A stretch of DNA of 64,000 nt from Candidatus Saccharimonadota bacterium. Its GTDB lineage: Bacteria; Patescibacteriota; Saccharimonadia; Saccharimonadales; Saccharimonadaceae. The stretch covers positions 62,001 to 126,000 of the forward strand of contig JAFRWP010000005.1 of NCBI GenBank assembly GCA_017437945.1, written 5' to 3'. The notes under the pieces are model-generated. The model worked only from the letters and a program-made list of their open reading frames with translations, searched no databases and was not told where the DNA came from. Below, in pieces: positions 32,870 to 39,904 of this stretch. Within the stretch, counting starts at the first letter, position 1. Each line of letters opens with the position of its first letter. The position numbers and the translations under genes are program-made.

Positions 32870-35146
32870 CTACTTTTTCTTGGGAGTAGCTTTCTTTGCG
32901 GCGGCGCGGCGTTTGGCTGGGCGACGAGTTTTCTTTGGCTTATTAGCGAGATACTCTTCGGCCTGCTCCTTAGTGACGGTCTTTGGATCGACATCTTTAG
33001 GGATGCGGACAAAGTTGCGGCGGCCTGGACCTTTAACATATGGGCCGTAAGCACCGTTGATAATCTGGATTTCGCCCCAGTCGGCGATATAAGAATCGCG
33101 TTTAGCTTCGTAGAGCGGAATTGCTTCGTCGAGCGTAATAGTATATGGATCGAAATCTTTGAGCGGAATGTTATATTTTCCAGCTTTGAGGTATGGGCCA
33201 AATGGGCCTGCGGCGGCAATAATATCGGCGCCGTCGGCGGCTTTGCCGAGGTCGCGCGGAAGCTGTGGTAAGGCTAACTGCTTGAGAGCCTGATCGAGCG
33301 TGACGGTCTTGACGCTCTTGCGCTTTGGTAGTGGCGCGAAGCGTGGTTTTTCGCCAGTTTCTTTTTCGTTCTCGCCGAGCTGGATGAAACCGCCGTTCTT
33401 GCCGACCTTAGCATAAATAGCTTTGCCGGTTTTTGGATCATGACCAAGTAGACGTGAGTTATTGTAGCGTTCAATACCTTCACTCGCGAGAACTTCGTTA
33501 TTGAACGGACCATAAAAGTCGCGAAGCATCTTCACGCGGTCGAGCTTGGCTTCGGCGATAAGATCGAGGTCTTTTTCGATATTGGCGGTAAATTTGTAGT
33601 CAACAATATTCTTGAAATTGTCCGTTAGAAATGCGGAAATGAGCTCGCCGATTGGAGTTGGCATGAGCTTGCCCTTGTTGGCGCCGTATTTTTCGGTGAC
33701 GGATTCTTTAGTGATTTGATTATTTTCGAGTTTAAGTTCGGAAACTTGGCGCTCTTCCCCGTCGGAATCGCCTTTAACGACGTAACCACGGGCTTGAATG
33801 GCGGTCATAATGGTTGCATAAGTACTTGGACGGCCGATGCCGAGTTCCTCGAGTTTCTTCACGAGTGAACCTTCGGTATAGCGAGCTTGCGGCTTGGCGT
33901 AAGTCTGATGTGCGGTGATTGATTTGGCCGAAACGGCATCGCCAACTTTGAGCTTTGGCAACTCGGTTTCTTTGAGGCGGCCATAAACTTTTAGAAAACC
34001 GTCAAAGGTAATAACTTCGCCCTTACCAATGAAATGATGTGGAGTTGGCGTATCGATAGTGATAGTCGTAGTTTCGATTTTGGCGTCGGCCATCTGGGTA
34101 GCCAAAGCGCGAGCGCGAATTAGGGCATAAAGACGCTTTTCGTATTCGTTTTTACCGGCAGTTTCGCGCTTAATGTCGGTTGGACGAATGGCCTCGTGGG
34201 CTTCCTGTGCGCCGGCAGATTTGGTCTTAAAATTGCGAACTTTGACGTAGCTCTTGCCGTATTTTTCTTCAACAAAACTGGCCATGTGGGCAATAGCTTG
34301 CTTACTAAGATTGAGGCTATCGGTACGATGATAGGTAATAAGACCGGCTTGGTAAAGTGACTGAGCGGCCTGCATAGTGGTGCGGGTTGAAAAGCCAAGC
34401 TTGCTGTTGGCCTCAATTTGCATGGAAGCAGTCGTAAACGGCGGCTGCGGTTTGCGCTCGCCTGGGGTATTTTCGACGGCTGAGACGGTATAATCTGCGC
34501 CGATGAGCTGCTTGAGGAATTTCTCGGCCTCATCTTCGGTATCAAATTCATGATTAAGCTTGGCGTCAAAGCCAAAGTCGCCGGAAACTTTGTAGGTATA
34601 TTTACTGGCGAATTTTTCGATAGCTTGTTCGCGCTCGACGATGAGACGAAGAGCCGGGCTTTGAACGCGTCCAGCTGAAATAGCACCCGGAACCTTTTTG
34701 CGGACAATGCCAGAAAGATCAAAACCGACGAGCATATCGAGGGTTTGGCGGGCTTGCTGGCTGGAAACCATGTTCATGTCTACAGTACGAGGATTCTTAA
34801 TGGCTTCTTCAAGAGCGGTTTTGGTAATTTCGTGGAAAGTAATGCGGGCGGTATTCTTCGGTAACTTCAAAACTTCGCAAAGGTGCCAAGAGATGGCTTC
34901 TCCTTCGCGGTCCTCATCCGTTGCGAGCCAGATTTTGTCGGCAGAAGCGGCGGCTTTCTTAAGATCCGCGATCACACTTTTGTGCTCCGGATCGATTTCA
35001 TAAGTAACGTCAAAAGTATTTTTGTCGACCTTGGTATCTTTGCGAATGTGGCCGACGGAGGCTAGTACAGTAAAATCTTTACCGAGGTATTTCTCGATAG
35101 TGTGCGCTTTAGCAGGAGACTCTACGATAACTAAATTTTTGCTCAT
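32870..35146 (-). CDS. topA: DNA topoisomerase I
   Basis: This type IA topoisomerase relaxes negative supercoils. The 758-residue protein begins KNLVIVESPAKAHTIEKYLG (Toprim), with LATDEDREGEAISWH, and has the catalytic tyrosine Y272 in LITYHRTDS (most family members have YMRTDS or YPRTDS). The C-terminal part carries repeated short topoisomerase C-terminal modules (GPYLKAGKYNIPL, GAYGPYVKGPGRRNF) and a Lys/Arg/Ala tail that should bind DNA. No zinc-finger cysteines are seen. TATTAT ends 8 bases before the ATG, suggesting a leaderless message. Confidence 0.97.
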   Translation of the reverse strand: MSKNLVIVESPAKAHTIEKYLGKDFTVLASVGHIRKDTKVDKNTFDVTYEIDPEHKSVIADLKKAAASADKIWLATDEDREGEAISWHLCEVLKLPKNTARITFHEITKTALEEAIKNPRTVDMNMVSSQQARQTLDMLVGFDLSGIVRKKVPGAISAGRVQSPALRLIVEREQAIEKFASKYTYKVSGDFGFDAKLNHEFDTEDEAEKFLKQLIGADYTVSAVENTPGERKPQPPFTTASMQIEANSKLGFSTRTTMQAAQSLYQAGLITYHRTDSLNLSKQAIAHMASFVEEKYGKSYVKVRNFKTKSAGAQEAHEAIRPTDIKRETAGKNEYEKRLYALIRARALATQMADAKIETTTITIDTPTPHHFIGKGEVITFDGFLKVYGRLKETELPKLKVGDAVSAKSITAHQTYAKPQARYTEGSLVKKLEELGIGRPSTYATIMTAIQARGYVVKGDSDGEERQVSELKLENNQITKESVTEKYGANKGKLMPTPIGELISAFLTDNFKNIVDYKFTANIEKDLDLIAEAKLDRVKMLRDFYGPFNNEVLASEGIERYNNSRLLGHDPKTGKAIYAKVGKNGGFIQLGENEKETGEKPRFAPLPKRKSVKTVTLDQALKQLALPQLPRDLGKAADGADIIAAAGPFGPYLKAGKYNIPLKDFDPYTITLDEAIPLYEAKRDSYIADWGEIQIINGAYGPYVKGPGRRNFVRIPKDVDPKTVTKEQAEEYLANKPKKTRRPAKRRAAAKKATPKKK

Positions 35147-37228: not shown

Positions 37229-37717
37229 ATGGATTGGGATGAATATTTCTTAAAAATTGCTGAGACTGTAGCGCTTCGCTCGAAGGATCCTTCGACCAAG
37301 GTTGGCACAGTCATTGTAGACGGGAAAAAGCGGCCAGTCTCTTTTGGCTATAATGGCTTAATTCAGGGTGCGGATGAGTCCAAATTGACGTTAACTGAAC
37401 GTCCGATGAAATATCATTTCTCGATGCATAGCGAAATCAATGCCATTATCTTCGCGCATCGTGATTTGGCGGGCTGTACCTGCTATTCGACTTACGCGCC
37501 GTGCGTAGATTGTCTGCGCTTCTTATTGCAGGCCGGTATTACGAGAATTGTTTATCAACATGCGCACGTGGAGTCCCACAAGAATAAGAAAAAAGCCTCA
37601 ATGCAGAACCCTGAAACCGACAAGGCGATTATTGCCCTGCTCGATTCGATGCCGCATGTCCAAGCCATTAATTACACGACCGGCAAGACTTATAAAGAAG
37701 AATTATTAGAAAAATAA
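37229..37717 (+). CDS. dCMP deaminase (ComEB type)
   Basis: This 162-residue zinc enzyme converts dCMP to dUMP, feeding dTMP synthesis. Zinc ligands and the catalytic Glu are in HSEINAIIF (HAE-type motif) and TYAPCVDCLRFLLQAGI (PCxxC). DPSTKVGTVIVD near the N-terminus is typical of the family. GGGAG precedes the ATG. The upstream TGG-TATATT (ending 37203) is a likely extended -10. It is downstream of, and divergent from, hsp20. Confidence 0.92.
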   Translation: MDWDEYFLKIAETVALRSKDPSTKVGTVIVDGKKRPVSFGYNGLIQGADESKLTLTERPMKYHFSMHSEINAIIFAHRDLAGCTCYSTYAPCVDCLRFLLQAGITRIVYQHAHVESHKNKKKASMQNPETDKAIIALLDSMPHVQAINYTTGKTYKEELLEK

Positions 37718-37724
37718 AAAGCAC

Positions 37725-38024
37725 CAAAAAGCCCCAGGTAAGGGTGGGCATCACCTGGGGCTATTTGGCCCTTAAACACACCTCCTAAGGCATCCGGACG
37801 AACCGGAGGCGTGACCCACCTCACACACTTTGGGTCCGCCGGTTTAAGGGATTGCTAGCTTTAGAAAAGATCTTTCTAAGTGGAGGTAATACTTTTCACT
37901 TCAAGTTATGGAAAGAAAACTTGAAGGCTGAAAGGGTTTCTAAAGCACGCAACAATTGCTAAATAAATTAGCAAAGTTATAGATTATTTAGGTGCGGCTT
38001 TTGGTCAGAATATGACCAAAACTA
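37725..38024 (-). ncRNA. Candidate structured RNA of about 300 nt, family not recognised
   Basis: This minus-strand transcription unit between a promoter (38058-38030) and a terminator (37762-37730) has no ORF and dense complementarity. Plus coordinates: TTTTGGTCA (37999-38007) with TGACCAAAA (38013-38021) at the RNA 5' end; TTGCTAA (37956-37962) with TTAGCAA (37968-37974); CTTCAAGTT (37899-37907) with AACTTGAAG (37918-37926); GCTTTAGAAA (37858-37867) with TTTCTAAAGC (37937-37946). A three-way junction is closed by CCCTTAAAC (37769-37777) and GTTTAAGGG (37842-37850), with arms CCTCC/GGAGG (37781-37809) and GACCCA/TGGGTC (37813-37836). I saw no RNase P, tmRNA or SRP signature. This fills most of the 460-base gap; 38059-38178 holds nothing I can name. 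Confidence 0.75.
37730..37762 (-). terminator. Terminator of the minus-strand ncRNA
   Basis: Ten-pair stem AGCCCCAGGT (37730-37739) with ACCTGGGGCT (37753-37762). On the minus strand the stem is followed by TTTTGGTGCTTTTT. It could also end the convergent dCMP deaminase transcript, but there is no T run on that side. Confidence 0.82.
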
Positions 38025-38029
38025 TGCTT

Positions 38030-38058
38030 ATGATAACACATACTTTTATATAAGTCAA
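38030..38058 (-). promoter_or_regulatory. Promoter of the minus-strand ncRNA
   Basis: TTGACT (38058-38053), 17 bases, TATCAT (38035-38030) on the minus strand. Initiation near 38023 puts the 9-pair 5' hairpin right at the RNA end. Confidence 0.75.
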
Positions 38059-38178: not shown

Positions 38179-38694
38179 CTAGTATTTTTCGATAAAATCG
38201 GCTATATTTTTGAGGATTTGTGGCAAATTGCCGCGCTCATGATCGGTAAATTTCGACAGAACAAAATCGATGTCACCAATGCGCTGGCGGAGGTTATCGT
38301 TACCGGTACCAAGGCGAAGACGCGGGAAATCATCAGTGCCGAAATGAGAAATGGTGGATTTGAGGCCATTATTGCCGCCCGCACTGCCCCGCTCGCGAAA
38401 GCGAATCTGGCCGAATTCGAGATTGAAATCGTCGCAAATAATCAGAAAATCTTTGGGCTCAAGCTTGTAATAATTACGAATTAGTTCAAAGCTTTGGCCA
38501 ACGTCGTTATAGAAAGTCTGCGGCTTAATAAAAAGCGTATCGCCGTCCTTGAAATAGAGCACGCGATACTTCTTGTCTTCTTTCCATGTAAAGCCACGAA
38601 GTTTCGCATAAAAATCCAACGCCAAGAAACCGAAGTTGTGACGCGTGAAATTGTATTCATTGCCCGGATTTCCGAGGCCGGCGATTACTTTCAT
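38179..38694 (-). CDS. pth: Peptidyl-tRNA hydrolase
   Basis: Pth releases peptides from stalled peptidyl-tRNA. The 171-residue protein has IAGLGNPGNEYNFTRHNFGF with the catalytic His in TRHN, KPQTFYNDVGQS (usually KPxTFMNxSG), DDFNLEFGQIRFRERGSAGGNNGLKS and the RLRLGTG segment. TAAAAT with extended TGC ends 8 bases upstream of the ATG, suggesting a leaderless message. Confidence 0.96.
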   Translation of the reverse strand: MKVIAGLGNPGNEYNFTRHNFGFLALDFYAKLRGFTWKEDKKYRVLYFKDGDTLFIKPQTFYNDVGQSFELIRNYYKLEPKDFLIICDDFNLEFGQIRFRERGSAGGNNGLKSTISHFGTDDFPRLRLGTGNDNLRQRIGDIDFVLSKFTDHERGNLPQILKNIADFIEKY

Positions 38695-38818: not shown

Positions 38819-39904
38819 ATGTTCATTAAGGAGAGATGGTCACCATATGTCATTTTGGCTCTAGTAATCCTGATCGCGGTAATCTTGATAGTGTGCGAAA
38901 CCAACAGGGTTTCCGTTATCTCTGTCGACAAGCTACAGTTGAGATTCGGTGAATCAAAAATTGGCACATTTGAAGCGGCAGCAATCGATAACAATCGTGA
39001 TTCCAATTACAGACTTTGCGTTGAGAAAGGTGGAAGAAGCAATTATTACGATTTGACGCCGAATATCTACCAGGTTATCGGTTTTACTTACGGTGATGGC
39101 GATTACAAGGTTACGCTGTATCGGCAGGAAAAACAGAATCAGGAAAAGAGCAATAAGGTTGGAGAAGTAACGATAAACACAACGATAAGTACAACCGCGG
39201 ACGCTGACACGGTCTCACCTTCTAAGGCGGAGACTAAAAAACCGAAAGTAGGCACGTCGATTAGCTATGACGCAGTGTGGGAGATGCGTGAGTATACGCA
39301 TACGAACAAAAAGACGATTGACTACTGGATAAATGTGCCGGAAGGTGCAACTAGCGGTATGCCAATCGTAATATTCTTGCACGGCGACGGCGAAATGGAT
39401 AGACCCAAGTCTGTCGCGAAGTTGAGACAAGTGAAGTATATGCGCGAATCGAAGGATTATATCAGTATCGCGCCCGTTGGCAAAAATCGTGATTGGACTA
39501 GTGATAAAGTGCAGCAGGCCCTCAAAGGATTAATAGACGATTGCATCGAAAAATATCAAATCGACACTGATAGGGTCTATATCTGGGGCTTTAGCCGTGG
39601 CTCGATCGGTACATGGGGGATGGTGGAACGATACGGTTCGTTCTTCAAAGCGGCCGTGCCAATCAGTTGTGGCAGCTATAACGGATCATCCGTTAAGGCG
39701 GAAAACTTCAAAGGCACGAAAATATACGCACTGGCAGGCAGTAAAGAAGGCCGATATATCAAACAGATGCGGAAAATCGTGGATAGCATTGTTAAAGTGG
39801 GCGGTTCAGCCAAGTTCGAAACCGTAGCTGGACAGACCCATAAGACTATATCGAAGAATTTCCCTTATGCCGAAGTGATTGATGACTGGTTACTCAAACA
39901 ATAA
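38819..39904 (+). CDS. Membrane-anchored alpha/beta hydrolase (esterase/PHB-depolymerase-like)
   Basis: This 361-residue protein has one N-terminal membrane segment (residues 9-28), an outer linker region of about 125 residues, and an alpha/beta hydrolase domain. The oxyanion strand is MPIVIFLHGDGEMD, the nucleophile Ser is in IWGFSRGSIGTWG (GxSxG), and the His is in VAGQTHKTI. It resembles feruloyl-esterase and PHB-depolymerase-type hydrolases that act outside the cell. The substrate is unknown; a host lipid or wall ester is possible. A single-gene unit with its own promoter and terminator. Confidence 0.85.
   Translation: MFIKERWSPYVILALVILIAVILIVCETNRVSVISVDKLQLRFGESKIGTFEAAAIDNNRDSNYRLCVEKGGRSNYYDLTPNIYQVIGFTYGDGDYKVTLYRQEKQNQEKSNKVGEVTINTTISTTADADTVSPSKAETKKPKVGTSISYDAVWEMREYTHTNKKTIDYWINVPEGATSGMPIVIFLHGDGEMDRPKSVAKLRQVKYMRESKDYISIAPVGKNRDWTSDKVQQALKGLIDDCIEKYQIDTDRVYIWGFSRGSIGTWGMVERYGSFFKAAVPISCGSYNGSSVKAENFKGTKIYALAGSKEGRYIKQMRKIVDSIVKVGGSAKFETVAGQTHKTISKNFPYAEVIDDWLLKQ

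Follow-up and report, generated by a model that had tools for sequence, protein, structure and literature searches.

Comparative sequence analysis indicates that the minus strand of the 64,000-nucleotide stretch analyzed here (the window) carries a stand-alone, normally single-copy, non-coding gene of Candidatus Saccharibacteria. We regard it as next to certain, from sequence comparisons, that this RNA is real as a conserved structured gene. The function that we propose for it, a trans-acting regulator of translation displayed on a pseudoknotted scaffold, is offered tentatively and by analogy with characterized small RNAs. The RNA is new as a family, structured non-coding RNA in general being a known notion; a literature search, with most subscription papers and preprints outside its coverage, returned no description of it.

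The RNA gene and its conserved fold

The gene, its predicted elements and its neighbors in the window are as follows.

38179..38694, minus strand: pth (peptidyl-tRNA hydrolase), conserved neighbor (Pfam; homologous loci)
38030..38058, minus strand: promoter TTGACT-17 nt-TATCAT, with TG before the -10 (scan and genus conservation)
37726..38025, minus strand: RNA gene, about 300 nt (ends placed from the -10 and the T-run)
37999..38021, minus strand: 5' hairpin P1, 9 bp, UUUUGGUCA/UGACCAAAA (fold; compensatory changes, helix 1)
37990..37995, minus strand: motif GCACCU (order-wide GYACCU), nearly invariant, unpaired in the model (homolog comparison)
37955..37975, minus strand: hairpin UUUGCUAA..UUAGCAAU (fold, homolog comparison)
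37937..37953, minus strand: 5' strand of helix P2, GUUGC-GU-GCUUUAGAAA (covariation, helices 2 and 3)
37899..37927, minus strand: side hairpin of the three-way junction (covariation, helix 4)
37878..37894, minus strand: CCUCC hairpin, stem AAGU/ACUU, loop AUUACCUCC (homolog comparison, stem covariation)
37851..37867, minus strand: 3' strand of helix P2, UUUCUAAAGC-UA-GCAAU (covariation)
37841..37850, minus strand: 5' strand of helix P3, CCCUUAAACC (covariation; genus helix 6, order-wide helix 7)
37814..37820, minus strand: GGUGGGU, complement of the terminator loop, putative pseudoknot site 1 (complement search, duplex energy)
37769..37779, minus strand: 3' strand of helix P3, GUGUUUAAGGG (covariation)
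37724..37768, minus strand: terminator hairpin, stem rich in compensatory changes (fold and covariation; genus helix 9, order-wide helix 14)
37743..37749, minus strand: terminator loop GCCCACC, nearly invariant (homolog comparison)
37229..37717, plus strand: convergent gene for a dCMP deaminase-like protein (Pfam)
32870..35146, minus strand: topA (DNA topoisomerase I), conserved neighbor in the order, on the side away from pth (Pfam; homologous loci)

An earlier note on this DNA had assigned an unidentified structured RNA to 37725-38058. That interval does hold the RNA gene, but it also takes in the promoter, and the transcript itself is predicted to run from about 38025 to 37726. The promoter described in the note, with its 17-base spacing, is present in the scan as TTGACT (38058-38053), a 17-nt spacer and TATCAT (38035-38030). 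On its own the scan was at chance level (one promoter found, 1.8 expected); the promoter is supported not by the scan count but by conservation, since aligned upstream regions from the genus keep the same elements and spacing (TTGAC/TTGCA, 17 nt and an extended -10 of the TGTGCTATAAT type). The terminator, claimed at 10 pairs, was counted in the fold and the genus alignment as a 12-pair stem with an outer 5-pair extension. The gap was also said to be free of open reading frames, and we found no coding capacity on the RNA strand, where the longest start-to-stop frame is 22 codons. The RNA thus has a conserved promoter and terminator of its own, and its strand varies relative to its neighbors, as expected of a stand-alone gene.

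The predicted folding energy was -115.1 kcal/mol compared to -76.5 kcal/mol for dinucleotide shuffles (z = -8.7), a value reached by 0/100 shuffles. In the genus alignment A1, which is based on sequence, 97.6% of the cells pair and two-sided changes occur in 27/79 pairs, against a shuffled mean of 7.8; none of 500 shuffles reached any of the five covariation measures, and sliding the partners abolished the signal. Covariation within the genus was found in helices 1, 2, 3, 4, 6, 8 and 9, and helices 5 and 7 hardly vary, so that the 9-pair hairpin at the 5' end and the further helices with a three-way junction, all foreseen in the earlier note, are borne out by the comparison. The order-wide alignment of 84 matches gave two-sided changes in 76/79 pairs, a count that no shuffle equaled, with 95.2% of the cells pairing. 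Since this alignment derives from a fit to the model, and two of its sequences are secondary matches read from the opposite strand, we take the genus covariation as the cleaner result. The covariation check suggested earlier was passed in both alignments.

The conserved core comprises P1, GYACCU, P2, the hairpin bearing CCUCC, P3 (whose insert varies) and the terminator. Most of the distant homologs aligned lack the side hairpin at the three-way junction. Pairing of GYACCU with an internal site was considered and set aside as weak (35/74 against 26 expected, a count that ignores shared ancestry).

Two further observations concern the fold in the homologs. In order-wide homologs such as L093 and L109, the GUUAG at the base of P2 has two possible CUAAC partners, one on each side, giving a local hairpin or P2, and in some lineages (L108 and the window genus) the two GUUAG pairings are separate; the alternative pairing hints at a possible conformational switch. 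In L133 (3559-3587), L136 (4008-4045) and L135 (3666-3706), a second terminator-like hairpin beside the RNA fits the 3' portion of the model and looks like a duplicate of the 3' hairpin.

Distribution and genomic neighborhood

Homologs with blastn E < 1e-50 were recovered from 22/25 genomes of the genus, including the RNA's own genome. A covariance model built from 21 sequences (R1) found one match per genome in 114/247 genomes of the order, across many families, and a second model built from 19 diverse homologs (R3) matched, at E <= 1e-4, 258 of the 267 genomes sampled from the order and 12/28 in other orders of its class. Among the nine genomes of the order without an R3 match, one (G186) was matched by R1. 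When the search was extended to a phylum sample of 380 genomes, every R3 match with E < 0.001 fell within the class; matches outside the class had E > 0.001 and were taken as chance. The E-values of the covariance models are rough. Genomes that have the RNA normally carry a single full-length copy.

When named genomes were scanned with a pattern, most of the matches came from Candidatus Saccharibacteria; among them, the copies in TM7 oral taxon 348 and in the complete TM7i genome (CP075337.1) were confirmed by the model. Pattern matches in Desulfotomaculum, Dehalococcoidia, Lachnospiraceae and Halomonas MAGs were not confirmed, and the plasmids and phages searched gave no match to the RNA. A strong copy (196.6 bits) was found at L138:57-297, on a contig of the Chloroflexi-labelled MAG PMG_070; this contig probably comes from a Saccharibacterium and was misbinned.

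At most homologous loci the RNA is found between topA and pth, near both, and der often accompanies pth; the sister-order copy L131 likewise adjoins pth and der. The RNA runs in the same direction as pth and topA in the window genus and in the opposite direction in most other genera. A cis-acting leader or riboswitch of a neighboring gene would be consistent with an RNA that ends in a terminator-like hairpin, but the next downstream gene in the window is convergent, and in related genera the RNA may be on the same strand as pth and topA or on the opposite one; we consider such a role practically out of the question. For a leader of pth or topA as the general function, the strand changes among genera amount to a refutation: because the strand relative to both genes changes, the RNA is not their general leader. 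The protein adjoining pth in the window (38819-39904, 361 aa) has no Pfam match at E 1e-6 and has, by eye, a GxSxG esterase-like look (GFSRGS).

Comparison with known RNAs

We searched the window with Rfam 15 (4227 models) at gathering scores and recovered two tRNAs and nothing at the RNA locus; a relaxed threshold (E up to 10) on the stretch gave chance matches only, and 20 loci with distant homologs (147 kb) gave no match. These results agree with the earlier note, which could not assign the RNA to a known family. RNase P RNA and tmRNA, which that note had named as examples of an identity that would refute it, are both encoded elsewhere in the same genome. The locus has no RF00010 match, the true RNase P RNA gene being at G000:C8:15365-15717, and neither an RF00023 match nor an ARAGORN call, the true tmRNA gene being at G000:C8:11496-11863.

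The signal recognition particle (SRP) RNA (RF00169, RF01854) resembles the RNA described here in being a single-copy structured housekeeping RNA, and none was credibly found in the RNA's own genome: the small and large models gave no match there at E 0.001 / 0.1, and in other genomes only matches with E > 5. The present RNA differs in that it is matched by neither model and its would-be partner domain is absent. The Ffh M domain (PF02978, the only Ffh domain searched for) was absent from 79/79 near-complete genomes of the class, the own genome among them, with 14/14 controls positive. SRP RNA identity is unlikely because the Ffh M domain is absent in these 79 genomes. Loss of SRP has been reported for Parcubacteria (PMC4508563), and judging from the genome sequences it seems to hold for Saccharibacteria as well.

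We also considered a 6S-like regulator of RNA polymerase. 6S RNA is a widespread regulatory RNA that one might expect in a bacterium, and none was found above the Rfam cut-off (RF00013) in 11 genomes. The architecture differs, however: instead of a long single hairpin with a central bubble, the fold has several domains and a predicted pseudoknot, and there is no 6S match at the locus, making this assignment very unlikely. A sub-threshold 6S match (32.4 bits) was observed at L023 (G026:C51:16563-16716), at a distance of about 400 nt from the gene for RNase P RNA; one family of the order may have a divergent 6S RNA. The complex pseudoknotted fold and the size would also suit a ribozyme, but there is no similarity to Rfam ribozymes and no known processing pattern, and a gene conserved as a single copy, with a terminator of its own, is in keeping with a stable end product, so that catalysis appears most improbable and a regulatory or ribonucleoprotein (RNP) role is favored over it.

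OLE, ROOL, GOLLD, HOLDH and raiA are large bacterial RNAs that Rfam lists and whose functions are poorly known. Like them, the present RNA was first found through a conserved complex fold; it differs in having no Rfam match and in being fixed at one chromosomal locus in one lineage.

The C-rich loops and the possible function

Two C-rich loops of the RNA hardly vary at all. The terminator loop is matched by a partner within the RNA; the CCUCC loop lacks one. A 7-nt complement of the terminator loop GCCCACC occurs upstream in 75/82 sequences compared to 2.5 expected, and in 68/75 compared to 2.0 expected in a second count, shared ancestry being ignored in both. The partner occupies one of two alternative sites. 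Some lineages have GAGGUGGGUC; others have GGGUGGGUU, always about 33 nt away; and both sites co-occur in a few sequences. The isolated duplexes of loop and partner have calculated energies of -14.6 and -16.7 kcal/mol. The retention of one or the other site implies a pseudoknot between the terminator loop and its internal partner that, we infer, is needed. The terminator loop was also considered as a general binder of Shine-Dalgarno (SD) sites and rejected: its complement GGUGGG occurs once before 319 starts, and its partner is internal instead.

CCUCC, which is the anti-Shine-Dalgarno core of 16S rRNA, is nearly invariant across the order (ACCUCC at 37887-37882 on the minus strand in the window). 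It lies at the end of a hairpin loop of mostly 9-12 nt, and the 4-bp stem of this hairpin covaries (67/78 paired, compared to 18% in a strand-exchange control). Within the RNA, complements of CCUCC are depleted, with 15 observed against 30.4 expected; neither the stem count nor this comparison corrects for shared ancestry. Potential targets for the loop exist, because GGAGG is enriched before start codons: in 388 kb of the own genome it is about 18-fold denser before the 319 predicted starts than in gene bodies. The RNA thus has a C-rich loop that is predicted to be exposed and is complementary to the SD sequence, as expected of an SD-targeting small RNA.

A partner-free CCUCC loop, predicted to be exposed on a rigid scaffold, suggests that the RNA pairs with ribosome-binding sites in trans. 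In the mechanism that we propose, the compact scaffold would display the CCUCC loop, which copies the anti-Shine-Dalgarno core of 16S rRNA; the loop would base-pair in trans with G-rich ribosome-binding sites of mRNAs; and the pairing would lower translation of the target mRNAs, as the C-rich-loop RNAs RNAIII and sX13 do. In Staphylococcus aureus, C-rich loops of RNAIII bind ribosome-binding sites (PMC2837412), and in Xanthomonas, hairpin loops of sX13 with runs of C act on G-rich motifs at translation starts without Hfq (PMC3771888). The present RNA shares with RNAIII a long, highly structured form with C-rich hairpin loops; RNAIII is longer, and the RNA described here differs further in having no Rfam match, an internally partnered terminator loop and order-wide conservation. 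The likeness to sX13 and similar Hfq-independent RNAs likewise lies in the C-rich hairpin loops, but sX13 is a simpler three-stem RNA without homology to this one, and its targets have been shown whereas those of the CCUCC loop are predicted. The match of CCUCC to SD sites does not by itself prove function, because any CCUCC loop complements such sites.

Several features sit less easily with a regulator of translation. A near-universal, single-copy fold of about 300 nt is more typical of housekeeping RNPs, mRNA-targeting small RNAs usually vary faster, and there is no known conserved extension beside CCUCC that would provide target specificity. The RNA might instead be the scaffold of a housekeeping RNP, in which a lineage-specific protein is bound via the C-rich motifs and the pseudoknot and no mRNA is paired, the particle serving as a machine, a hibernation factor or an assembly factor. 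Near-universal presence in the order, one full-length copy as the norm, a strongly conserved core and the internal pseudoknot all speak for such a particle, as does the unusual RNP repertoire of a class without a detectable Ffh M domain and with no credible SRP RNA in the tested genomes. There is, however, no candidate partner, nor any uniquely linked protein gene besides pth, topA and der. We hold the RNP scaffold to be doubtful but a serious contender; it fits the near-universal conservation nearly as well and ranks only slightly below the regulator of translation.

The CCUCC loop could also mimic the anti-Shine-Dalgarno tail, the RNA serving as a decoy that titrates a binder of the 16S 3' end or of C-rich RNA, such as a KH or cold-shock protein. 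The loop variants ACCUCC, ACCCUCC and, in the sister order, CACCCUCCUUU resemble the 16S tail, and internal partners of the loop are avoided. Decoys such as CsrB carry many sites, but the CCUCC hairpin occurs once per RNA, and there is no candidate for the titrated protein; we find a decoy rather improbable.

The RNA could represent a new class of housekeeping RNA, with a translation-linked or RNP function for which no other bacteria are known, in a lineage without detectable SRP, a proposal that we advance with reserve. Because it is kept beside pth in nearly every genome of Saccharibacteria, which are tiny parasitic bacteria, the RNA probably does a basic job in them. Its retention in nearly all genomes of an order reduced to roughly 0.5-1.6 Mb makes it very likely to be important. 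Cultured members exist, such as TM7i, which carries the RNA, so its expression, its partners and any epibiotic role are open to testing, and annotation pipelines gain a missing gene for a large bacterial group.
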